A DNA stretch of 64,000 nt. It comes from Nitrogeniibacter mangrovi (lineage in GTDB: Bacteria > Pseudomonadota > Gammaproteobacteria > Burkholderiales > Rhodocyclaceae). The DNA lies in the NCBI RefSeq assembly GCF_010983895.1, contig NZ_CP048836.1, positions 3,348,001 through 3,412,000 of the forward strand, read 5' to 3'. Positions 1 to 32,818 of this stretch are shown in pieces. Under the pieces are notes generated by a model. The model had not been told where the DNA came from, made no database searches, and saw only the letters and a program-made list of their open reading frames with translations. Each line of letters opens with the position of its first letter. Position 1 is the first letter of the stretch. The translations under genes were made by a program, and so were the position numbers.

Positions 1-1
1 C

Positions 2-292
2 CCGGCGCTGCAATCCAGCCTCGACGCCCTGGTCGCGCCACTGCAGGCGCAGCCGACGCTGCAGGCACTGATCGTCGGTCACACCGACAGCATCGGGCGC
101 GAAGGCTACAACATGCTGTTGTCGCGCAAGCGTGCCCGGGCGGTGCGCGACTATCTCATGGCCGCCGGCATCGATCCGATGCGCCTGACCGCGGAAGGGC
201 GCGGCGAAACCGAACCGGTCGCCGACAACGACACGCCGGAAGGCCGCAGCCGCAATCGGCGCGTCGAAATCCGCCTGTTTCTGCCCCGGTAG
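2..292 (+). CDS. OmpA-family C-terminal domain protein (partial, 5' end outside window)
   Basis: Only the last 96 residues are inside the window; the reading frame is open from base 2 to the TAG at 290-292. The segment matches the peptidoglycan-binding OmpA/MotB C-terminal domain: a GHTDSIG core near the window start, then LSRKRARAVRDYL, GEGR-like AEGRGETEP and the closing NRRVEI motif. In this family the Asp of GHTD and the Arg of NRRVEI contact the diaminopimelate of peptidoglycan, so the product is expected in the periplasm or outer membrane. What precedes the domain (a beta barrel, lipoprotein signal or DUF4398-type region) cannot be seen. The domain call is secure; the protein name is not. 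Confidence 0.85.
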   Translation, partial: PALQSSLDALVAPLQAQPTLQALIVGHTDSIGREGYNMLLSRKRARAVRDYLMAAGIDPMRLTAEGRGETEPVADNDTPEGRSRNRRVEIRLFLPR

Positions 293-364
293 ATGCACGA
301 GGTGTGACGCGAGCGGCAGACGCTTTGATAAACTTCCGCTTTTGGCAGCAACCGCGGAACGTTC

Positions 365-2476
365 ATGTCGCGCAAGATCTTCGTCACCAACGCCCTGCCC
401 TACGCCAACGGCGACATCCACCTGGGGCACCTGGTCGGGTACATCCAGGCCGACGTCTGGGTGCGCTTCCAGCGCATGCAGGGCCATGAAGTGCATTATG
501 TGTGCGCCGACGACACCCACGGCACGCCGGTCATGTTGCGCGCCGAGAAGGAAGGCGTCAGCCCCGAGCAGCTCATCGCCCGGGTCCACGGCGAGCACCT
601 GCGCGACTTCACCGACTTCTCGGTAGCCTTCGACAATTACCACTCCACCCATTCGGACGAAAACCGCTTTTTCGCCGAGGACATCTACGCCAAGCTCAAG
701 GCGGCCGGCCTGATCGAGACGCGCGCCATCGAGCAGTTCTACGACCCGGTCAAGCAGATGTTCCTGCCCGACCGCTTCATCAAGGGCGAATGCCCCAAGT
801 GCGGCGCGGCGGACCAGTACGGCGACAACTGCGAAGTGTGTGGCGCGGCCTACGCCCCCACCGACCTCAAGAACCCGTTCTCCGCGGTCTCCGGCGCCAA
901 ACCCGAGATGCGTTCGTCAGAACACTATTTCTTCAAGCTGTCCGACCCGCGCGCGGTCGATTTCCTGCGCGACTGGACCCAGGGCAGCAACGCCAGCGGC
1001 ACCCGGCGCCTGCAGGCCGAGGCGGCCAACAAGATGAAGGAGTGGCTCGGCGAGCCGGGCGAGAACAAGCTCTCCGACTGGGACATCTCGCGCGATGCGC
1101 CCTACTTCGGCTTCGAGATTCCGGGCGCGCCGGGCAAGTACTTCTACGTGTGGCTGGACGCCCCGATCGGTTACTTCGCCAGCCTCAAGCATCTGGCCGA
1201 GCGCAGCGGCGCCATCGACATCGACCGCTTCATCGGCGGCGAGGCAGCCCGCGACACCGAGATGGTCCATTTCATCGGCAAGGACATCCTCTACTTCCAC
1301 GCCCTGTTCTGGCCCGCGATGCTGCATTTCGCCGGCTACCGCACGCCGAGCCAGCTGGCGGTGAACGGGTTCCTCACCGTCGATGGCGCGAAGATGTCCA
1401 AGAGCCGTGGCACCTTCATCACCGCGCGCTCCTACATCGAGCAGAAGCTCAACCCGGAGTGGCTGCGCTACTACTTCGCCGCCAAGTCCAACGGCACCAT
1501 GGAAGACGTGGATCTGTCGCTCGACGACATGATCGCCAAGGTCAACGCCGATCTGGTGGGCAAGTTCATCAACATCGCCAGCCGCTGCGCCGGCTTCATC
1601 ACCAAGCGCTTCGACGGCAAGCTCGGCGCGCCGGACCTGGACGCGCTCGCGCCCTACCGCGCCAGCCTCGATTCGGGTGAAGTCGCCAGGGCCTACGACA
1701 ACCGCGACTACAGCCGCGCCCTGCGCGAGATCATGCGCCTGGCGGACGCAGCCAACGCCTATGTGAACGATCACAAGCCCTGGGAGCTGGCCAAACAGGA
1801 CGGACAGGATGCGGCGCTGCATCGCGTCTGCTCCACCGCGCTCAACCAGTTCCGCATCCTCGCCGGTCTGCTCAAGCCGATCCTGCCGACCGTGGCGGCA
1901 CAGGTAGAAGCCTTCCTGAACATTGCACCGCTGACATGGGGTCAGCTGACCGACACGCTGCCCGCCGGTCACGCCATCAACAAGTACCAGCACATGATGA
2001 CCCGCATCGAACGCGCCCAGATCGACAAGCTCATCGACGCCAACAAGGCGTCGCTGGCGCCGGTGCCCGAGAACAGCAGCCGCCAGCGCCATGCCGAATC
2101 CCAGCAAAAGTCGGCCGAGGCCCAGGCCGGCGCGGACGACACCATCAAGATCGACGACTTCACCAAGGTGGATCTGCGCATCGCGAAGATCGTCTCGGCC
2201 GAACACGTCGAGGGCGCCGACAAGCTGCTGCGCCTGCAGCTCGACATCGGCGAGGACCAGCCCCGCCAGGTCTTCGCCGGCATCAAGTCGGCCTACGATC
2301 CGGCCACCCTGGTCGGCCGGATGACAGTCATGGTCGCCAACCTCGCCCCGCGCAAGATGAAGTTCGGCATGAGCGAGGGGATGGTGCTGGCCGCCTCCGA
2401 CGAGAGCGGTGCCACCCCGGGCCTGTTCATCCTCTCCCCCGACGCCGGCGCCACCCCCGGCATGCGAGTGAAATGA
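365..2476 (+). CDS. metG: Methionyl-tRNA synthetase
   Basis: Charges tRNA-Met with methionine in the cytoplasm. 703 residues, the usual length for the long proteobacterial form. The class I HIGH signature appears as HLGH at residues 18-21 and the KMSKS loop is intact at 343-347. A zinc knuckle is visible with Cys pairs at about 143/146 and 156/159 (CPKC, CEVC). The C-terminal residues, from about 590, form the EMAP/Trbp111-type tRNA-binding OB domain ([15 protein letters not shown]), joined by a charged linker. The ATG at 365 gives the expected [16 protein letters not shown] start; an extended -10-like TGATAAACT lies about 30 bases upstream. It heads a four-gene operon in which each downstream start overlaps the previous stop. 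Confidence 0.97.
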
Positions 2477-2730
2477 CCATGAACGACACCCAAGACCTCG
2501 CCAAGGCAGGCCTCTCCAAGTGGATCGCCCTCCATGTGATCGGCTCGCTGATCGCCGTCCTCGGCGCCCTCTACCTGCTCGCCAACATGACCCTGATCCC
2601 CGGCGTGCCCGGCTCGCCCTTTCAGGCGCTGGCGATGCTGGCCGGCGGCCTCATCCTCGACTTCTGGGGTGTGGTCGGCCTGACCCGGATCCTGCGCGCA
2701 CGCAAGGCCGCCAAGGCGGCAAAGGCATGA
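2473..2730 (+). CDS. Small two-helix membrane protein, function unknown
   Basis: 85 residues. Two hydrophobic segments are visible, about residues 19-41 ([20 protein letters not shown]) and 52-73 ([19 protein letters not shown]), with a basic Lys/Ala-rich tail, so it is probably an inner-membrane protein with a cytoplasmic C-terminus. Its ATG at 2473 overlaps the metG stop (ATGA); a second in-frame ATG at 2479 is an alternative start. Its own stop overlaps the acylphosphatase start. I do not recognise a family. The position between metG and acyP suggests it is co-translated with them, but nothing in the sequence gives a role. Confidence 0.75.
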
Positions 2731-3020
2731 GCGCCAATCCCATCGCCCGGCGTCTGGTCATCACCGGCACGGTGCAGGGGGTCTGGTATCGCGCCAGCAC
2801 CGTCGAGGCCGCGCAGCGGCTGGGCGTGGCCGGCTGGGCGCGCAACTGCGCCGACGGCTCCGTCGAGGTGCTCGCCGTCGGCGCGCACGACGCGGTGCAC
2901 GCGCTCATCGAATGGGCCCACGACGGCCCGCCCAAAGCCGTGGTCAGCCAGGTCGCGACCACGGTCGTCGAGGTTCCCGAACCGCCCCCGACCGACTTCT
3001 CCATCGCCCCCGACGCATGA
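2727..3020 (+). CDS. acyP: Acylphosphatase
   Basis: 97 residues, typical size. Hydrolyses carboxyl-phosphate bonds such as acetyl phosphate or carbamoyl phosphate. The family signature GTVQGVWYR at residues 14-22 supplies the catalytic Arg22, and GWARNCADGSVEV supplies the catalytic Asn40. The ATG at 2727 overlaps the preceding stop, and the final codons overlap the start of the SulP gene, so all four genes of this operon are coupled. The last 15 or so residues are proline-rich and not conserved in the family. Confidence 0.95.
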   Translation: MSANPIARRLVITGTVQGVWYRASTVEAAQRLGVAGWARNCADGSVEVLAVGAHDAVHALIEWAHDGPPKAVVSQVATTVVEVPEPPPTDFSIAPDA

Positions 3021-4702
3021 TCCGCTTCCGCCCCCGCCTGCTCGACGCGCTCAAGGACTACTCGCGCACCCAATTCGCCCAGGACGCCGGCAGCGGCGTC
3101 ACCGTGGGCGTGCTCGCGCTGCCGCTGGCCATGGCCTTCGCCATCGCCTCGGGCATGTCGCCCACCGCAGGCATCTGGACCGCCATCGTCGCCGGCCTGA
3201 TCATCTCCCTGCTGGGTGGCTCGCGCGTGCAGATCGGCGGACCCACCGGCGCCTTCATCCCCATCGTCTACGGCATCGTCGCCGACTACGGCGTCGCCAA
3301 CCTGCTGGTGGCCACCCTGCTGGCCGGCATCATGCTGTTCGCCATGGGCGCCTTCCGCCTCGGCGGCCTGATCCGCTTCATCCCGGTCTCGGTGGTCACC
3401 GGCTTCACCAACGGCATCGCGGTGGTGATTTTCCTCTCCCAGATCAAGGACTTCCTCGGTCTCAAGATCGCCGAGCTGCCGGGCGATTTCTTCGGCAAGG
3501 TCAGCACCCTCGGCCAGCACCTGCACACCATGCACGGGCCGACCGTGGCGGTCGCCGTCGCCTCCCTGCTCACGCTCATCTTCTGGAATGCGCTCGCACG
3601 CCGCTTCCGGCCGCTCGCGCGGGTACCGGGCCCGCTGGCGGTGCTCGTCATCGCTACCGCGATCAATGCCCTCGTCGGCCTGCCGGTGGATACCATCGGC
3701 ACCCGCTTCGGCGGCATTCCCCAGTCGGTGCCGGCCATCGGCCTGCCGGACCTCGATTTGTCCGCGCTCAGCAAACTCATGGCGCCGGCGCTCACCATCG
3801 CCATGCTCGGCGCCATCGAATCGCTGCTCTCGGCGCGGGTCTCCGACAACATGATCGACGACCGGCACGACCCCAACCAGGAGCTGATGGCCCAGGGCCT
3901 GGCCAACATGGCTGCGCCCCTGTTCGGCGGCTTCGCCGCCACCGGCGCGATCGCGCGTACCGCCACCAACATCCGCAGTGGCGGGCGCACCCCGGTGGCC
4001 GGCATCATCCATTCGCTGGTGCTGCTCGCCGTGGTCCTGGCGCTGGCACCCATGGCGGCCTACATCCCGCTGGCCACCCTGTCGGCGATCGTGGTGATGG
4101 TCTCGGTGCACATGGGCGAATGGCATGCCTTTGCGCATCTGAAGCGCTTCTCCATGGCCTACCGCACCATCATGCTGGGCACCTTCTTCATCACCGTGGT
4201 CCTCGACCTCACCCTGGCGGTCGAGATCGGCCTGGTGCTCTCCAGCCTGTTCTTCATCCGCCGCGTCTCCGACCTCACCCGGATCGAGCCGGTGAGCCTG
4301 CCCGAGGGCGTGTGCGAGCGCAGCGGCGACCGCCTGCTGGTGTTCCGCCTCTTCGGCAGCCTGTTCTTCGGCGCCGCCAACAAGCTCGAAGACCTGCTCC
4401 ACGAGCTCGACCGTCATCCGAAAGTCATCGTCCTGGCGCTCGACAAGGTCATCAACATCGACACCAGCGGCCTCGACATCCTCCAGACCCTGCATCGCGC
4501 CATGCGCAAGCGCGGCGCCACGCTGCTGCTGTGTGAGCTGAACCCGCAGCCGCGCTCCATCATTGTGCGCTCGGGCTTCCTCGATGCGCTGGGTGCGGCG
4601 AACGTGACCGACACCTACGCGCAGGCCCTCGCGCGCGGCCAGAAGCTGTGCGCCGACGACGCGGCCAGTGCCACCCCGCCACCGGTGCCGCCGCTGCCGT
4701 AG
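3017..4702 (+). CDS. SulP-family anion transporter with STAS domain
   Basis: 561 residues. An integral inner-membrane protein of the SLC26/SulP family, which moves sulfate, bicarbonate or other anions, often with a cation or in exchange. The N-terminal part carries about 11-12 hydrophobic helices and the family sequence GVLALPLAMAFAIASG plus GPTGAFIPIV. From about residue 430 there is a cytoplasmic STAS domain with the conserved INIDTSGLDILQTL loop. The ATG at 3017 overlaps the acyP stop; the frame is open further upstream, but that extension would run inside acyP and is not credible. The substrate cannot be told from sequence. No clear Rho-independent terminator follows. Confidence 0.92.
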   Translation: MIRFRPRLLDALKDYSRTQFAQDAGSGVTVGVLALPLAMAFAIASGMSPTAGIWTAIVAGLIISLLGGSRVQIGGPTGAFIPIVYGIVADYGVANLLVATLLAGIMLFAMGAFRLGGLIRFIPVSVVTGFTNGIAVVIFLSQIKDFLGLKIAELPGDFFGKVSTLGQHLHTMHGPTVAVAVASLLTLIFWNALARRFRPLARVPGPLAVLVIATAINALVGLPVDTIGTRFGGIPQSVPAIGLPDLDLSALSKLMAPALTIAMLGAIESLLSARVSDNMIDDRHDPNQELMAQGLANMAAPLFGGFAATGAIARTATNIRSGGRTPVAGIIHSLVLLAVVLALAPMAAYIPLATLSAIVVMVSVHMGEWHAFAHLKRFSMAYRTIMLGTFFITVVLDLTLAVEIGLVLSSLFFIRRVSDLTRIEPVSLPEGVCERSGDRLLVFRLFGSLFFGAANKLEDLLHELDRHPKVIVLALDKVINIDTSGLDILQTLHRAMRKRGATLLLCELNPQPRSIIVRSGFLDALGAANVTDTYAQALARGQKLCADDAASATPPPVPPLP

Positions 4703-19707: not shown

Positions 19708-20757
19708 ATGATTCACGTCCTCAAGCATGTCGAGTCGATCACCCGGCACCGCGACCGCACCCTGCTCGAAGTGGGGGTGGCCTCGGCGCTGTACGAGATC
19801 CTGCGTCCCGAGGCCGTCAACCTCTTCAAGGTCCAGGACGCGGGGCACCGGACCCTGCTGCACCGGCTCGCCCACGCCGGCAGCGACGGGGTGCGCTATT
19901 GCGACACCGATTTCGACACCGCCGACGAGATCCTGGCGCTCGACTCGCGCGAGGACTTCCGCGCCTGCGTGGCCGAGGAGCGCATCGTCGCCGACGCCTC
20001 GGCCGGAAACGGCCGGATCACCTACTGCCTGCCGGTGGCCTACGATGGCAAGGTCAGCGGGGTGATCGAGCTGCGCGCCTCGGCAGCGCTGGACAACGAG
20101 CGGCTCGATCTCGCACTCGGCTTCATCAACCTGTATCGCAACTACCTGAGCCTGCTCGACTACAGCGAGCGGGACACCCTCACCGGTCTGCTCAATCGGC
20201 GCACTTTCGACGACAATCTCGACAAGATCCTGGGGGCCATCACCGCATCACGGGTGGACGAGGCGCTCCTGCCCGGTGCCGACCGGCGCCAGCACGGCCC
20301 GGTCTCGGCGCCGCACTGGCTGGCGGTCATGGACGCCGACCGCTTCAAGCGCATCAACGACGAATTCGGCCACCTCTACGGCGACGAGGTCCTGATCCTG
20401 CTGGCCAATCTGATGCGCGAGAGCTTTCGCTTCGAGGACAAGCTGTTCCGCTTCGGCGGCGAAGAGTTCGTGGCGGTGCTGACCCCGACCTCGGCCGAGG
20501 ATGTGGCACGGGTCCTGGAGCGCTTTCGCGAAAAGGTGGAGCAGTACCATTTCCCCCAGGTGGGTCAGGTCACCATCAGCATCGGCTACGTGCCCCTGCG
20601 CGCCGGCGACACCCCGTCGGCCGCCCTAGGGGCCGCCGACGAGGCGCTCTACTACGCCAAGAATCACGGCCGCAACCGCGTCTGTGCCTACCCGGCGCTG
20701 GTCGAGGCCGGCGAGATCCTGCCGCGCACCTTCAACGACGATCTGGAACTGTTCTGA
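19708..20757 (+). CDS. GAF-GGDEF diguanylate cyclase
   Basis: 349 residues, no membrane segment. An N-terminal GAF-like sensor region occupies about 1-150 and ends in a helix leading into the GGDEF domain (DTLTGLLNRRTF at about 155). The active-site loop is GGEEF (250-254), an active variant, and an RxxD inhibitory site (RFED) lies five residues before it. An insertion of about 35 residues, rich in charged residues and containing a Gly/His run, sits between the DTLTGLLNRR motif and the MDADRFKRIND metal-binding motif. Makes c-di-GMP in the cytoplasm in response to an unknown ligand. Close spacing to lysR (39 bases) allows co-transcription. Confidence 0.93.
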   Translation: MIHVLKHVESITRHRDRTLLEVGVASALYEILRPEAVNLFKVQDAGHRTLLHRLAHAGSDGVRYCDTDFDTADEILALDSREDFRACVAEERIVADASAGNGRITYCLPVAYDGKVSGVIELRASAALDNERLDLALGFINLYRNYLSLLDYSERDTLTGLLNRRTFDDNLDKILGAITASRVDEALLPGADRRQHGPVSAPHWLAVMDADRFKRINDEFGHLYGDEVLILLANLMRESFRFEDKLFRFGGEEFVAVLTPTSAEDVARVLERFREKVEQYHFPQVGQVTISIGYVPLRAGDTPSAALGAADEALYYAKNHGRNRVCAYPALVEAGEILPRTFNDDLELF

Positions 20758-23325: not shown

Positions 23326-24477
23326 TCAGCCGGAGGGGGCGGCAGCCTCCTCGCCGGTGCGCGAACTGACCCGGATCGGCTCGCGGATCGCATGGGCCGC
23401 GAGCAGCCGGTGCAGGGCGGCGATGGCGGTCTCGGTCAGTTCGTGCCCCTTGGTGAGCACCATCAGGCCGTTGGTGGTGCGAATGTCCTCCTCGACCACC
23501 CAGCCGGGCATGAGCTCCGAGACGCGCGCCGCACGCCGTCCGGCCACCCCGGCGCGCAGATCGGACAGGGCCTTGATGATGTAATCGGGAATGGCGGGCT
23601 TGAGCGCCCGCAGGATCTCCCAAGGCCGCTCCAGGCCGTTTTCCCGGGTCGCATGACGCTCGAGTTCGAGGGCGGCGCGCAGCAGCTGGCTGCCACGGAT
23701 GACCTCGAGCGCTTCGTCGGCCGGCGCGGCGCTGTGCTGATAGCGGATGATCCGCGCCACCGTCTCCATGCGGGGGATGCGCTCGACCAGGCGGCAAGCC
23801 ACCTCGGGATGGGAGCGCAGCAGCTCGCGCTGCTCCGGATCGAGGTTGCGGTGCGCCGCATCGGCCTGCACCACCTCGGCGGGAATGCCGACACAGCCGA
23901 TCTGGCTGAGCGCGGCCGCCACGTTGTAGATCCAGCCGTCCGGCCATTCGAGCTTCGGCAACGCGTGACGCACACACGACTGGGCGAAGGTGGAGCGCTG
24001 GAAGGCCCACGGCGCGACCATCGCAAGGACCTCGGTGAGGGTCTTGACCGAGGCGCTCACGGTGGTTTCGAGCAATTCCTTTTCGGCACGCAGCAGGCGG
24101 TACTGGCCGACCGCGTCGGCGAGCGTGGCGCTCAGTTCGTCCTTGGGACACGGCTTGCACAGGTAGCGGAAGATCGCGCCCTTGTTGATGGCGGCGATCG
24201 AGGACTCGAGATCGGCCTGCCCGGTCAACAGCAGACGCACGCTGTCGGGCGACAGCTCCCGGGCCTTGGCCAGGAAGGTGGCGCCATCCATGCCCGGCAT
24301 GCGCATGTCGGACATGATCACCGCGAAGGGTTCCTGCCAGCGGATGGCGTCCAGCGCGGCCTCGCCCCCGTTGGCCACGACCACGTCGAAATCGGCCCCC
24401 AGGTTCCGCTCCATCGCCGACAGGACGTTGGGCTCGTCGTCAACGCAGAGAATGCGCGGCAAGGGCGTGTCAGTCAT
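23326..24477 (-). CDS. Response regulator with degenerate HD-GYP-like output domain
   Basis: 383 residues. The receiver is intact: DDE near residue 13, phosphoacceptor Asp57 (VIMSDMRMPGMDG), Thr in LLTGQ and Lys in LCKPCP. The output region (about 150-340) can be aligned by eye to RpfG-type HD-GYP domains, but the catalytic HD is replaced (AALSQIGCVGIP where HDIGKIGIP is expected), the second pair reads YQH instead of HH, and the GYP loop is missing. The HPEVACRLVERIP helix is preserved. It is therefore predicted to lack phosphodiesterase activity and to act by binding. It overlaps the preceding REC-HDOD gene by 8 bases and is the last gene of the FIST cluster. Confidence 0.85.
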   Translation of the reverse strand: MTDTPLPRILCVDDEPNVLSAMERNLGADFDVVVANGGEAALDAIRWQEPFAVIMSDMRMPGMDGATFLAKARELSPDSVRLLLTGQADLESSIAAINKGAIFRYLCKPCPKDELSATLADAVGQYRLLRAEKELLETTVSASVKTLTEVLAMVAPWAFQRSTFAQSCVRHALPKLEWPDGWIYNVAAALSQIGCVGIPAEVVQADAAHRNLDPEQRELLRSHPEVACRLVERIPRMETVARIIRYQHSAAPADEALEVIRGSQLLRAALELERHATRENGLERPWEILRALKPAIPDYIIKALSDLRAGVAGRRAARVSELMPGWVVEEDIRTTNGLMVLTKGHELTETAIAALHRLLAAHAIREPIRVSSRTGEEAAAPSG

Positions 24478-25570
24478 CGGAAATGTCCTCGTTCGTCGAT
24501 TGCATCCAGGCCTGCCACTGCGGCCACTTGGCGCCGACGCCGACGCGCTCGAGATAGGCCAGGTCGGGCTCGCGGCCATTGGCGAGCCGGGTCGCCACAT
24601 GCACCACGCCGGCGGTATCGAAGTGGGTGGGTGAGCTGCGCGCCGGATCTTCATGCCAAGCCACCGCATTGACGATCTCCATGGGCAGCCCCCACACCGC
24701 CAGCAGATAGGCCCCGACGGCGGCATGCAGGGGCGTGGCGCAGGCGGTCACCTCGTCGCGCACCTCCGGGTCGGCGATTTCGGGGATGCTCAAGGCCACA
24801 TGGGCCAGCAGCGCCGCCGTGGGCGCCGGGCCCTTGATGCCACCGATGTGGGCGGCCAGCTGACTGGCCAGCAGGGCCCGGTGCTGGAGCGCATCGATAT
24901 GACCGTCACCGTCCCCGGTGGCGAACACCTGGGCGGCCAGCACCAGCAGGCGCACATTGTCCAGCCCCAGCCGGGCAATCGCCTGGCCGACGTCGTGAAT
25001 GGCGCTGCCGCGCGCAAAGTAGGCCGAATTGGCCAGCTGCAGCAGCTTCGCCGACAGGGCCGGATCGCTGCCGAGCAGATCGGCGATGCGGCGCAGATCG
25101 GTCTCCGGATCGGCCATGAGTTCGCACAGCCGGGTAAACACCTTGGGCGAAGCGGGCAGCCGGCTGATGCGACCGACCACATCCACCACCTGCGGATCGG
25201 CGAACAAGGCGCGCAGCCCGATGGCGTTCTCCACCGCGTCGAGCAGGGCCTTGCTGTCGCAGGGCTTGGCGACGAACTGATGGGCCACGTCCAGCATGCG
25301 CATGGTCGCGTCCATCTCGGAGTAGCCGGTCAGGATGATCCGGATCGTGCCGGGCCAGCGCTCGCGCACCCGGACGAGCAGCTCGGCGCCATCCATGAAG
25401 GGCATGCGCATGTCCGAGATGACCACGTCGGCCGGCTGCGCCTCGAGCATCTCCAGCGCCTCCTGGCCGCTGGTGGCGAAGCGCAGACCCCAGTCACGCC
25501 CGCTCATCATCAGGGTCCGCTCGATACCGGCCAGCACCCGCGGCTCGTCATCGACAACCACCACCTGCAT
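24470..25570 (-). CDS. Response regulator with HDOD output domain
   Basis: 366 residues. The receiver domain (1-120) has the acidic residues DDE at 8-10, Asp53 (VVISDMRMPFMDG), Thr (ILTGYS) and Lys (VAKPCD). An HDOD domain follows at about 135-330: RISRLPASPKVFTRLCELM, then LGSDPALSAKLLQLANSAYF and IARLGLDNVRLLVLA. HDOD domains are HD-related but non-catalytic and work as signalling or scaffold modules. The ATG at 25570 follows GGAGTACGTG and overlaps the kinase stop by one base (TGATG). It is probably phosphorylated by the neighbouring histidine kinase. Confidence 0.93.
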   Translation of the reverse strand: MQVVVVDDEPRVLAGIERTLMMSGRDWGLRFATSGQEALEMLEAQPADVVISDMRMPFMDGAELLVRVRERWPGTIRIILTGYSEMDATMRMLDVAHQFVAKPCDSKALLDAVENAIGLRALFADPQVVDVVGRISRLPASPKVFTRLCELMADPETDLRRIADLLGSDPALSAKLLQLANSAYFARGSAIHDVGQAIARLGLDNVRLLVLAAQVFATGDGDGHIDALQHRALLASQLAAHIGGIKGPAPTAALLAHVALSIPEIADPEVRDEVTACATPLHAAVGAYLLAVWGLPMEIVNAVAWHEDPARSSPTHFDTAGVVHVATRLANGREPDLAYLERVGVGAKWPQWQAWMQSTNEDISDD

Positions 25571-26682
25571 CACGTACTCCTTCCCGCACCGCCGTCGAGC
25601 GGCAGGCGCACCACGAAACAACTGCCGACCCCTTCTTCGGACTCGCAGAAGATCTCACCCTGGTGCTTGTCGACCACCGTGGAATAGGCGATCGCAAGCC
25701 CCTGACCGGTGCCCTTGCCCACCGCCTTGGTGGTGAAGAAGGGGTCGAAGATCCGATCGCGAATCCCGATCGGAATACCGCTGCCATCATCGCACACCCG
25801 TATCTCCATGGCATCGCCCCGGCAGGCGGCGGAGATCTCGATGCGGCCCTTGTCGCGCACCCCTTCGCGCAGCGTACCGGCGATCGCATGGGCCGCGTTG
25901 ACCACCAGGTTGAGCACCACCTGGCCGATCATGTCGCGCTGGCACGGCAGGCTGGGCAGATCGTCCGCGAAGCGGGTCTCGACCTCGGCCACGTATTTCC
26001 ATTCGTTGCGCGCCACCGTCAGCGTGGTGGCGATCAGCTCGCGCATGTCCACCGGCTCCTTCTCGCCGCCGGAGGGATGGGAAAACTCCTTCATCGCGGC
26101 GACGATGCGCGAGATGTGCCCCAGGCCTTCGAGCGACTCGTCGAGGGCGCCCGGGATCTGCCGCCGCAGGAAGTCGAGCCGGGCGCGCTTGAGGGTCGCG
26201 TCGAATTCGACCATCGCCTCCGCCTCCGGCAGCAGCGGGCGGGCCACCTCGGCCAGGCCCACGGCCTTGTCGACCAGGCCGAGCAGCGTCCCCGAGGCGG
26301 TCTGGATGAAACCGACGTTGTCCATGACGTACTGGGTCGGGGTGTTGATCTCGTGGGCGATGCCCGCCGCAAGCTGGCCGACGGACTCCATCTTCTGCGC
26401 CTGCAGCAGCTGCGCCTGGGTCAGGCGCAACTCCTCTAGCGCCCGCTGCAGTTCGTGCCGCTCCGTCTCCAGTTCCTCGGTCTTGCGGGCGACGACCTGC
26501 TGCAGCGAGAGGTTCTGCTCCAGGATCGCGTAGGGCGAATCCTTGCCGCTGACCGCCTCCTGCATGAGACGCCGCTTGAGCACCTCGATCGTCTTGTCGC
26601 GGGCGACCAGCTTGCGCTGCAGGGCCTCGCTCGACAGGGCCGCATAGGGGCTTGCGGCGGCCGGTGTTTCGATCTCGCTCAC
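25570..26682 (-). CDS. Soluble sensor histidine kinase of the FIST cluster
   Basis: 370 residues, no membrane helix. An N-terminal helical, probably coiled-coil region (about 20-105) leads to the phosphoacceptor segment QLAAGIAHEINTPTQYVMDN (about 103-122). The ATPase core has N-box NLVVNAAHAI, G1 DDGSGIP, F-box FDPFFTTK and G2 GTGQGLAIA. It starts with GTG at 26682, supported by GGAGG within the end of the FIST gene. With no sensor domain of its own, it must take its signal from a partner, and the FIST protein encoded three bases upstream is the obvious candidate. It overlaps the REC-HDOD gene. Confidence 0.93.
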   Translation of the reverse strand: MSEIETPAAASPYAALSSEALQRKLVARDKTIEVLKRRLMQEAVSGKDSPYAILEQNLSLQQVVARKTEELETERHELQRALEELRLTQAQLLQAQKMESVGQLAAGIAHEINTPTQYVMDNVGFIQTASGTLLGLVDKAVGLAEVARPLLPEAEAMVEFDATLKRARLDFLRRQIPGALDESLEGLGHISRIVAAMKEFSHPSGGEKEPVDMRELIATTLTVARNEWKYVAEVETRFADDLPSLPCQRDMIGQVVLNLVVNAAHAIAGTLREGVRDKGRIEISAACRGDAMEIRVCDDGSGIPIGIRDRIFDPFFTTKAVGKGTGQGLAIAYSTVVDKHQGEIFCESEEGVGSCFVVRLPLDGGAGRST

Positions 26683-26685
26683 GGT

Positions 26686-27801
26686 TCAACCTCCGATGGC
26701 CACGGCGGTGAACGTCTGGTTCACGTGCACGCCGTTGAACTGTTCACCATAGGTGGAAAATCCGAACACCCGGTTGGCGGCCATGAGCCGGCCGACCGCG
26801 GCGTCGATGCCCTCGCCCTCGAATTCGAGCCGGCGCAGGATGCAGTCGCAGGCCAGGATCAGGGCTGGCTCGGGCATCGCGCGACGCAGCTCCGAGAAGG
26901 CCGTCTGCAGGGTTTCGAGCGGATCGACGGCGGCGCCGATGGTCACGATCAGCCCCTCCTCGATCGCGCAATAGCAGGTCAGGGACATGTCCGCGCCGAT
27001 CTGCTGGACGGAACGCACATAGGGCTCCTGACCGAAGGACAGCACGAGCGGATGGCAGGAGAACACCTCGGCCGTCAGCGCGTCCGGGGTCAGCCCCAGC
27101 GCCTCGGCGTAGGCCACGGCCGCCGGTTCGCCGTTCATCTCGTAGATGATCCGGCGCTCCGGGTCGGCGGCGGTGATGACCAGTTCGGTCGCGGTGGGAT
27201 GAAAGTGCTGCACCTTCATGGGCTGGATCGGCGCGTCGCACTCGACCAGACAGAACACGGCCGCGTCGCTGAGGAAGCGACCGGCACCGTCATAGACGTG
27301 GGTGCTTTCGAAGCGCAGGTCGTCGCCGGCCGAGCCGCCGACGATGGGCATGTTGCCGACCGCCTGGTAGAGGCTGGCGACCAGGCGCTCCTCGAGCATG
27401 GACAGGCCATCGACCAGCAGCAGGCCGAAGCGGCTCAGGTCCGGATGCGCGGCACCGCGTTCGCGCACCGCCTCGGCGATGCGCACGGCCCGGTGGGCAT
27501 GATCCGCGAGCGGGGTGATCGGATACGGCTGCAGACGCAGGCCGCCACCGCGAAAACCCACCCCGAGAATCCCGGTGTGTTCGAATCCGTCCGCGCCGAT
27601 CTGCCCGGCCGCCGTGCACCCGGTGGTCGGGCAGACAAAGGTGTCCTGCAGCGCCGATCCGAGTTCCCCGAGCACGTAGTCCGGGGAACAGAAGAAGATG
27701 ACCGCATCGAGGGTGCCCGGGCCGAAGGCCGCCGCCAGCTCGGCGACGGCCTGGCGCGGGTCCATCGACCGGCTCTCGCCATGTACGACTTCGATCGCCA
27801 T
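26686..27801 (-). CDS. FIST-domain sensor protein (NosP-like)
   Basis: 371 residues. The N-terminal FIST domain is recognisable from DAVIFFCSPDYVLGELGSAL and PTTGCTAAGQIGADGF, and the FIST_C domain covers about 225-350 (ACDCILRRLEFEGEG, GFSTYGEQFNG). FIST proteins bind small ligands. The NosP subgroup binds haem, senses nitric oxide and is encoded next to a histidine kinase that controls biofilm and c-di-GMP. The arrangement and length here match that pattern, so NO sensing is a reasonable inference, not demonstrated. The ATG at 27801 follows AAGGGAG; an upstream GTG at 27807 is possible. First gene of the cluster. Confidence 0.88.
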   Translation of the reverse strand: MAIEVVHGESRSMDPRQAVAELAAAFGPGTLDAVIFFCSPDYVLGELGSALQDTFVCPTTGCTAAGQIGADGFEHTGILGVGFRGGGLRLQPYPITPLADHAHRAVRIAEAVRERGAAHPDLSRFGLLLVDGLSMLEERLVASLYQAVGNMPIVGGSAGDDLRFESTHVYDGAGRFLSDAAVFCLVECDAPIQPMKVQHFHPTATELVITAADPERRIIYEMNGEPAAVAYAEALGLTPDALTAEVFSCHPLVLSFGQEPYVRSVQQIGADMSLTCYCAIEEGLIVTIGAAVDPLETLQTAFSELRRAMPEPALILACDCILRRLEFEGEGIDAAVGRLMAANRVFGFSTYGEQFNGVHVNQTFTAVAIGG

Positions 27802-27896: not shown

Positions 27897-27920
27897 AAAA
27901 AAGGGCGCCCGCAGGCGCCC
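27897..27920 (-). terminator. Rho-independent terminator of maeB
   Basis: On the minus strand, a 7-base GC stem (GGGCGCC pairing with GGCGCCC, 4-base loop) is followed by six T residues. It lies 22 bases after the maeB stop and separates maeB from the FIST cluster. Confidence 0.85.
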
Positions 27921-32155: not shown

Positions 32156-32629
32156 TCATTCCTCTTCGCGGAATTTCTCGTGGCACGCTTTGCAGGCCTT
32201 GCCGGTCTCGCCGAACTGGGCCTTGATGGCGGCCGGGTCGCCGGTCGCGGCGGCCGCCTGCAAGGCGTTGGCCTGCTTGACGAAGTTCATCGCGATCTTG
32301 CGCACTTCATCCGGTTGCTGGAAGAACGCGGACTTGAGCCGGGTCTTCTCCCATCCCTTGCCCTGATCGGTCCCCGGCGCATACAGCGCCCCCATGCCGG
32401 AATTGGCCACGGCGGCGATAACATTGGCGGCCGCCTCGACCTGAGCCTTGTCGTAGGGCACCGCGCCGTCGACCACCTGGGCCTTGATCTTGCCCATGTT
32501 CCAGGCCATGAAGGCATAGCCGGACTGGCGGAACTTGATCATGTCCTCGGGTTTGACCTGGGCGGAGGCGGCCGTGGCCAGGCCGAGGGCGGCCAGACCG
32601 ACGAGTGCACGGGCTGCGATGTGTTTCAT
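32156..32629 (-). CDS. Cytochrome c' (class II c-type cytochrome)
   Basis: 157 residues with a signal peptide (MKHIAARALVGLAALGLATAASA). The haem-binding motif is CKACH close to the C-terminus, the class II arrangement. KPEDMIKFRQSGYAFMAWNMG matches the first helix of the four-helix bundle. Periplasmic; cytochromes c' bind nitric oxide and are common in denitrifying betaproteobacteria, where they protect against NO. Convergent with the cytochrome b561 gene. GGAG lies upstream of the ATG at 32629. Confidence 0.93.
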   Translation of the reverse strand: MKHIAARALVGLAALGLATAASAQVKPEDMIKFRQSGYAFMAWNMGKIKAQVVDGAVPYDKAQVEAAANVIAAVANSGMGALYAPGTDQGKGWEKTRLKSAFFQQPDEVRKIAMNFVKQANALQAAAATGDPAAIKAQFGETGKACKACHEKFREEE

Positions 32630-32818
32630 GGATGCAATTCTCCAAGCATGCAATGGGGATGGCCGGCGCGCGCCGGCCGACGATGATCGGGGGCGTACGC
32701 GTGCCGTACGCCGTCAGAATATTAACCGACCCTGATATTCCGACGACTGCGATGCGTCAAAGTTTCGCGGAAAACGGCCGTTACGAAGTGCATCGCCCGC
32801 TGACAGAAAACGACAGGC

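Follow-up and report, generated by a model that had tools for sequence, protein, structure and literature searches.

A conserved four-gene cassette of Nitrogeniibacter mangrovi joins a NosP-like FIST protein and a soluble kinase to two response regulators without an intact catalytic output

Introduction

How does a signalling pathway act when neither of its response regulators has an intact catalytic output? The question is raised by four adjacent genes in a stretch of 64,000 nucleotides from Nitrogeniibacter mangrovi (the window; contig NZ_CP048836.1, positions 3,348,001 to 3,412,000), which encode a FIST protein, a soluble histidine kinase, a response regulator pairing a receiver domain (REC) with an HDOD domain, and a second regulator whose receiver is followed by an HD-GYP-type domain stripped of its catalytic motifs (REC-pseudo-HD-GYP). 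We put the probability at about 60% that the four genes work as one cassette, in which the FIST sensor binds haem and probably nitric oxide (NO), the kinase loads two non-enzymatic, partner-binding regulators, and the pseudo-HD-GYP protein controls an enzyme of cyclic di-GMP (c-di-GMP). A preliminary description of this DNA had cited no known system with such a composition. This held for the REC-HDOD partner and for the recurrence of the kinase and both regulators as a trio, of which we found no description in the literature searched; a degenerate HD-GYP regulator is already known alongside NosP and NosK (PMC12570481) and as HnoD (PMC6335343; here and below, published systems are cited from the portions of the papers available to us).

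A tight operon with conserved gene order

The FIST, kinase, REC-HDOD and REC-pseudo-HD-GYP genes form one tight minus-strand operon (Table 1), with a 3-base gap between the FIST and kinase genes, a 1-base overlap between kinase and HDOD genes, and an 8-base overlap between the two regulator genes. Pfam matches identify FIST (137.5 bits) and FIST_C (66.4 bits) in the first product; HATPase_c (81.7 bits), HisKA (14.4 bits, under its cut-off) and no recognised sensor domain in the kinase, whose H-box is GIAHEINTPTQYV; an intact receiver (78.2 bits) with HDOD (104.5 bits), the make-up of an HDOD response regulator, in the third; and a receiver (63.3 bits) with HD_5 (61.9 bits, residues 146-249) in the fourth. 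Both receivers retain the acidic pair, the phospho-acceptor aspartate, the T/S and the K, and the kinase's HEINT box fits the H-E/D-x-x-T/N phosphatase motif cited for NosK (PMC12570481). Coordinates, spacing and domain matches bear out the earlier statement that four minus-strand genes overlap or nearly touch at 23326-27801.

This gene order is not a matter of chance, since the same order is kept in 18 other complete loci. The distribution figures come from searches of genome samples. Scanning GTDB with six FIST proteins from the clade returned 56 loci; the scan relied on two peptide patterns from the cassette clade and is biased towards that clade. Eighteen of these loci encode a FIST protein of at least 57% identity; 16 have the complete set with order and strand unchanged, and the remaining two (L104 and L111) are truncated at contig ends. 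Two more complete loci from a search of the window's family (L056 and L057) bring the total to 18 complete cassettes besides the window, so that the order is kept in 18/18 loci with sufficient contig (same-contig pairs L059/L109, L060/L106 and L058/L111 were each counted once). Hosts include Methyloversatilis, Azoarcus, seven Kosakonia, two Phytobacter, Mangrovibacter, Rouxiella, Enterobacter sp. Bisph1, Shewanella fodinae, a gammaproteobacterial metagenome-assembled genome (MAG) and two genomes of the window's family. The preliminary description had staked its proposal on the four genes staying together and had pointed to Rhodocyclales and other betaproteobacteria; they are indeed conserved as a unit, but one confined to neither group.

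No cassette was found in FIST loci of 53% identity or less, most of which hold a FIST gene with or without a nearby kinase match. A set of 65 non-cassette loci, from which cassette loci, L054, L055, L147 and five duplicates were excluded, includes 13 whose fetched stretch contains an HDOD or HD-like frame. REC-HDOD is encoded in L112, L136 and L149; L092 and, on the opposite strand, L120 encode an HDOD protein; L148 gives a weak HDOD match; and several others have frames with intact HD-GYP motifs. The L112 stretch ends after REC-HDOD, and L136, a Polyangiaceae MAG, combines FIST, kinase and REC-pseudo-HD-GYP with a divergent REC-HDOD. The locus of Enterobacter sp. EA-1 (L147, excluded from the counts) has every cassette gene split into several frames, for which poor assembly is a likelier cause than decay.

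The cassette is patchily distributed. FIST proteins of at least 60% identity occur in 6/199 genomes of the window's family (its own genome counted), in its own genome alone among 300 sampled from the order, and in 1/77 Shewanella; the pseudo-HD-GYP protein occurs in 15/295 genomes of the family of Kosakonia sacchari, once with two internal stops, a count that may be inflated because four genomes (G491, G494, G495 and G496) were already in the data set. The flanking genes are not the same from genus to genus, nor within Kosakonia. The window's kinase and pseudo-HD-GYP proteins are closest to those of K. oryzendophytica (71% and 77%, as against 62% and 68% for Methyloversatilis L094), its HDOD protein to that of S. 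fodinae (62%) and its FIST protein to that of Methyloversatilis (63%). Two main groups are common to all four gene trees, which place the window and Azoarcus differently and are poorly resolved near the window. The simplest reading of this patchiness is horizontal transfer of an apparently mobile cassette. Integration at tRNA genes was rejected as a rule, a tRNA gene being present in 4/18 loci scanned (within 1 kb of the cassette in L102, L110 and L056). On plasmids, FIST relatives were found on 162 records at E up to 1e-30, every one below 60% identity, and an E. coli collection held no near match to the K. oryzendophytica cassette.

Table 1. Features of the operon and its upstream border (positions in the window)
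Feature	Position	Strand	Remarks
FIST-FIST_C protein, 371 aa	26686..27801	minus	NosP-like, candidate haem/NO sensor; heads the operon
Soluble histidine kinase, 370 aa, GTG start	25570..26682	minus	without recognised sensor domain; H110 in HEINT
REC-HDOD response regulator, 366 aa	24470..25570	minus	phospho-acceptor D53
REC-pseudo-HD-GYP response regulator, 383 aa	23326..24477	minus	phospho-acceptor D57; SQ replaces the HD dyad, GYP motif absent
Terminator-like stretch, G+C-rich inverted repeat followed by a T run	27897..27920	minus	between malic enzyme and FIST genes; read by eye

Loss of the catalytic motifs under purifying selection

Neither regulator has an intact catalytic output, as had been stated: one output is HDOD, and the other lacks both motifs of an HD-GYP phosphodiesterase, the HD dyad and HHE..DG.GYP. 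Comparison with three canonical HD-GYP proteins revealed that HDIGKVGIP has become SQIGCVGIP and that RYQHSAAPAD stands in place of HHE..DG.GYP. The protein shares the REC-HD_5 architecture and a similar C-terminal tail with receiver HD-GYP c-di-GMP phosphodiesterases, the type named RpfG, but not their dyad and GYP motif. The dyad is absent in 23/23 aligned proteins (the window, L102, L136, 14 members of the wider module described below and six from Shewanella), a set partly gathered with a profile built from such proteins and therefore biased towards them; L215 retains the D of the dyad, and four of the 23 keep a DG.GFP remnant. In a tree of 31 HD regions, one supported branch (99/98) separates these 23 rows from eight canonical ones, with the window and 16 others as a supported set (100/98). 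A single origin of the loss is suggested by this tree, which has only eight canonical rows and drew a tool warning, its long branches meeting at the canonical row L148.

All four genes are under purifying selection. In seven pairs, the ratio of nonsynonymous to synonymous substitution rates (dN/dS) ranged from 0.02 to 0.16 in FIST, from 0.04 to 0.09 in the kinase, from 0.07 to 0.25 in REC-HDOD and from 0.02 to 0.12 in REC-pseudo-HD-GYP; the L102/L107 pair is saturated (dS >1) and its value unreliable. Mean pairwise identity across 19 cassettes is highest for the pseudo-HD output (74.5%), followed by the kinase (70.2%), FIST (68.0%) and the HDOD output (56.7%). The catalytically dead output is more conserved than the sensor, and an enzyme remnant so well kept argues for a working part. 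The strip GCVGIP beside the former active site is conserved as well. The structure model of this regulator has a predicted local distance difference test (pLDDT) score of 83.5 but a predicted template modelling (pTM) score of 0.63, leaving the domain arrangement uncertain. Its top 50 Foldseek matches are all receiver domains or proteins that contain one, which leaves the fold of the HD part without independent confirmation.

A NosP-like FIST protein

The NCBIfam equivalog profile of NosP (NF041558) matches the window FIST protein nearly end to end (371.1 bits, residues 10-370, E 6e-111), and a single-domain FIST-FIST_C protein adjoining a sensor-less soluble kinase is the NosP arrangement. Its score lies under the curated cut-off of 450 bits, and we therefore call the protein NosP-like rather than NosP proper; all 36 FIST proteins scanned match the profile at E up to 1e-5. 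The earlier assignment of the FIST/kinase pair to the NosP/NosK type is upheld to that extent, and NO or haem sensing by this protein we infer by analogy. H199 and H359 are invariant across 36 FIST proteins, and Cys62, Cys278 and Cys320 in 23/23 cassette-type proteins (L112 and L136 counted in). The AlphaFold2 (AF2) model is of high confidence (pLDDT 94.9, pTM 0.92); its best matches among solved folds are FBXO22 (E 7e-8, TM-score about 0.5), itself a protein with a FIST domain, and then cyclic amide hydrolases. Sequence searches returned no credible solved structure (best E 0.05, to an unrelated protein; none in a second search).

The same genome holds further FIST genes. A second FIST protein (G000:C1:3742081-3743178; L054:6055-7209) scores 402.5 bits against NosP, above the window protein and also under the cut-off, and the upstream same-strand frame is a histidine kinase with a bacterial sensor domain (PF21623). 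At G000:C1:866998-868131 (L055:5580-8960), FIST, FIST_C and MCPsignal lie in a single 1127-residue frame, a FIST-chemoreceptor fusion, with a REC-sigma54-activator gene ~2.6 kb downstream. Elsewhere, Zoogloeaceae or betaproteobacterial MAGs carry tandem NosP-like genes (four in L137, positions 1-3938; two each in L130 and L133); just upstream of those in L130 and L133 is a frame with an intact HHE..DG.GYP motif.

Relation to the Nos and Hno systems

One of the closest described systems is Burkholderia nosRPK, which comprises the FIST sensor NosP, the soluble kinase NosK and NosR, a receiver joined to a degenerate HD-GYP domain (PMC12570481). Shared with the window are the FIST protein, the sensor-less soluble kinase with an H-E-x-x-T/N box, the receiver with a catalytically altered HD-GYP domain and their placement in one operon. 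The gene order differs, however, NosR has HG-GTP where the window protein has SQ for HD and no GYP motif, and REC-HDOD is not named in the available part of that description (PMC12570481). The NosR profile (NF053512) matches the window regulator with 210.4 bits, best over residues 9-149, and 17/17 of its relatives at E up to 1e-20; the window's FIST and pseudo-HD-GYP proteins fall under both NCBIfam cut-offs.

In Shewanella oneidensis, the Hno network consists of the kinases HnoK and HnoS, the REC-EAL protein HnoB, the transcription factor HnoC and HnoD, a degenerate HD-GYP protein that keeps the EAL phosphodiesterase HnoB suppressed through direct contact, a block relieved by the kinases (PMC6335343). 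The window likewise leads from a putatively NO-linked kinase to a REC-pseudo-HD-GYP regulator, which aligns with the HnoD-like protein of Shewanella locus L179 at 28% identity over 439 columns (E 1e-42, 18-sequence set), but its operon has neither a REC-EAL (HnoB) nor a helix-turn-helix (HTH) regulator (HnoC). The three response regulators named in the available part of PMC6335343 do not include REC-HDOD. Six of eight Shewanella loci with pseudo-HD-GYP relatives, which are of two kinds, were fetched with wider flanks (L174 and L176 were left out; L182 is from the S. fodinae genome itself). In L179, Pfam identifies FIST, kinase, REC-pseudo-HD-GYP, HTH-REC, REC-EAL and, immediately after REC-EAL, REC-HDOD; L180 and L184 lack a FIST match but have all four regulators, as judged by profile, motif or Pfam. 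The regulators of these loci other than HDOD fit HnoD, HnoC and HnoB, names given here by composition as described in PMC6335343 and not taken from the records. In L181-L183 a divergent REC-HDOD gene lies beside the REC-pseudo-HD-GYP gene and the kinase, with a PAS domain in the one checked (L181). Because L179 holds the four gene types of the cassette together with HTH-REC and REC-EAL, the cassette resembles an Hno-type network from which the EAL and DNA-binding outputs are missing and only two non-catalytic regulators are left.

Other HDOD response regulators, namely MmoQ (PDB 3p3q and 3ljx), GsmR of Xanthomonas and DVU0330, share the receiver and HDOD output but are not described with a FIST sensor or pseudo-HD-GYP partner in the available part of PMC4114195, and DVU0330 keeps its HD residues (PMC4114195). 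In the literature searched, which included few subscription papers, HDOD was not found alongside a FIST domain, nor an HDOD response regulator alongside nitric oxide, an absence that is no proof; likewise, the portions available on HDOD, HD-GYP and histidine kinase operons did not describe such a REC-HDOD/pseudo-HD-GYP pair.

The trio behind other sensors

The kinase, REC-HDOD and REC-pseudo-HD-GYP genes also recur without FIST, behind other sensors. The REC-HDOD profile matched (E up to 1e-50) in 26/398 sampled genomes of the phylum, the window's own included, and the 20 stretches that were fetched cover 21 of the 29 listed places outside that genome. In 14/20 stretches the immediate neighbour is a REC-HD_5 protein of the same type as in the window; these 14 span five families (eight loci from one of them), and 13 of them have a kinase scoring >200 bits; no FIST match lies within about 5 kb of any of the 20 fetched loci. 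Pfam analysis of eight kinases and one upstream frame found NIT, DAHL, PAS, Tll0287-like with PAS, and REC-PAS-GAF domains. We tentatively regard the trio as a general output module, somewhat short of an even chance, in which two dead phosphohydrolase folds would form a phosphorylation-gated pair, probably in one complex, acting on c-di-GMP enzymes, with sensors swapped and the window cassette as its mobile, NosP-linked form. In a genome of the same class (L205:5326-10753), the trio is followed by a REC-GGDEF protein (GGDEF 31 bits).

Neighbouring genes

The terminator-like stretch upstream of the FIST gene suggests that the transcript begins with that gene; no FNR, sigma-54 or NsrR-like pattern was matched upstream of FIST in the window and 14 relatives. 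The flanking genes scanned in the window were those for malic enzyme, phospholipase A1 and a zinc-type dehydrogenase. A GGDEF protein encoded at 19708-20757, 2.6 kb from the cassette end, is a candidate target. The preliminary description had also drawn a cytochrome c' gene at 32.2 kb into the circuit. The gene is real (32156-32653; PF01322, 119.9 bits) and sits beside a cytochrome b561 gene on the opposite strand, but the link is unsupported: it is 4.4 kb from the cassette, with malic enzyme, ParA-type and cytochrome b561 genes between, and nothing connecting the two was found, the flanks of other cassettes not having been scanned.

Proposed mechanism and alternatives

In the scheme we favour, FIST is taken as a detachable sensor in the cytoplasm. 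It would bind haem, probably also NO on that haem, and would act on the adjacent soluble kinase as NosP does on NosK, setting its balance between kinase and phosphatase activity. The kinase would phosphorylate both receivers, to judge by the operon structure and the intact phospho-sites. Neither output is expected to be enzymatic, and both would act by binding a partner protein. By analogy with HnoD, the target of the pseudo-HD-GYP protein is most likely a c-di-GMP enzyme from another part of the genome, which it would hold or release; REC-HDOD, the usual partner of this protein, would act on the same target or the same complex. The HDOD output probably acts on the same kind of target, given the HDOD-EAL fusion proteins of Vibrio and Acidithiobacillus (PMC12607878, PMC6416229) and the position of REC-HDOD immediately after REC-EAL in L179. 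Endogenous NO is plausible because the genome carries three adjacent cytochrome d1 (PF02239) matches (G000:C1:3587059-3595176), suggesting a denitrifier that makes its own NO. The sign of any NO effect is not predictable, since it varies among species (PMC12570481). A GGDEF protein is encoded directly upstream of the Azoarcus cassette, and a GGDEF-EAL protein one gene from that of K. sacchari.

Several observations weigh against this scheme. Genes for c-di-GMP enzymes do not regularly accompany the cassette: searching 18 loci for motifs, an approach that overlooked the Azoarcus GGDEF, gave EAL-type frames in three Kosakonia and one doubtful case. The pairing of the regulators is incomplete, as 6/20 fetched REC-HDOD loci have no pseudo-HD-GYP neighbour, nor do L191, L192 and L200 within their 1.5 kb flanks, and HDOD is common in the window genome (11 matches). 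On the sensor side, the 371 bits of FIST against NosP are matched by a shortfall of the pseudo-HD-GYP protein against NosR (210 bits, cut-off 400), and H199 and H359 are at best candidate haem ligands: H199 is missing in the FIST proteins of Shewanella L179 and of L149, and the FIST chemoreceptor of the same genome carries Asn at the places of both H199 and H359. The model for the output is itself described in two ways, PMC8738867 giving HnoD an inactive diguanylate cyclase (DGC) domain, contrary to PMC6335343.

Some of these points would also fit a cassette that senses something other than NO, such as haem availability, redox state or another FIST-bound small molecule, with the rest of the pathway the same. 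The sub-threshold NosP score, the three invariant cysteines and the resemblance of the FIST model to FBXO22 and to cyclic amide hydrolases, whose fold, to judge by their name, binds small ring compounds, all lean that way, as does the presence of the cassette in Kosakonia and Phytobacter, which we take not to be classical denitrifiers. We nevertheless consider another signal doubtful, given the strength of the NosP profile match, a sensor-less kinase as in nosRPK and the cytochrome d1 cluster in the same genome. Less probable again is that the regulators are nucleotide effectors: c-di-GMP or another nucleotide, bound by the dead HD-GYP and HDOD domains, would gate protein binding, with no enzyme controlled directly. 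Degenerate GGDEF and EAL domains do serve as c-di-GMP effectors (PMC6416229), and the pseudo-HD output is highly conserved, including its GCVGIP strip; yet dyad and GYP motif are gone in 23/23 proteins, there is no ligand-bound structure, and HnoD acts through contact with an EAL protein (PMC6335343). An ordinary NosP operon whose output genes have decayed and lost their function would explain why catalytic residues are absent from both outputs, but this is contradicted by the conservation of the cassette: the order is kept across several families, dN/dS is 0.02-0.25, the pseudo-HD output is better conserved than the sensor and the receivers are intact, making decay highly improbable.

NosP pathways are studied for the control of biofilms by NO, and in the Burkholderia work the way in which a dead HD-GYP domain serves as an output is still hypothetical (PMC12570481). 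The present cassette keeps a dead HD-GYP regulator across several families, alongside HDOD as a second non-catalytic output, and its operon contains no catalytic regulator. Lacking HnoB and HnoC, the cassette offers a minimal system for this pseudoenzyme question, and REC-HDOD may be an overlooked component of the Shewanella network.

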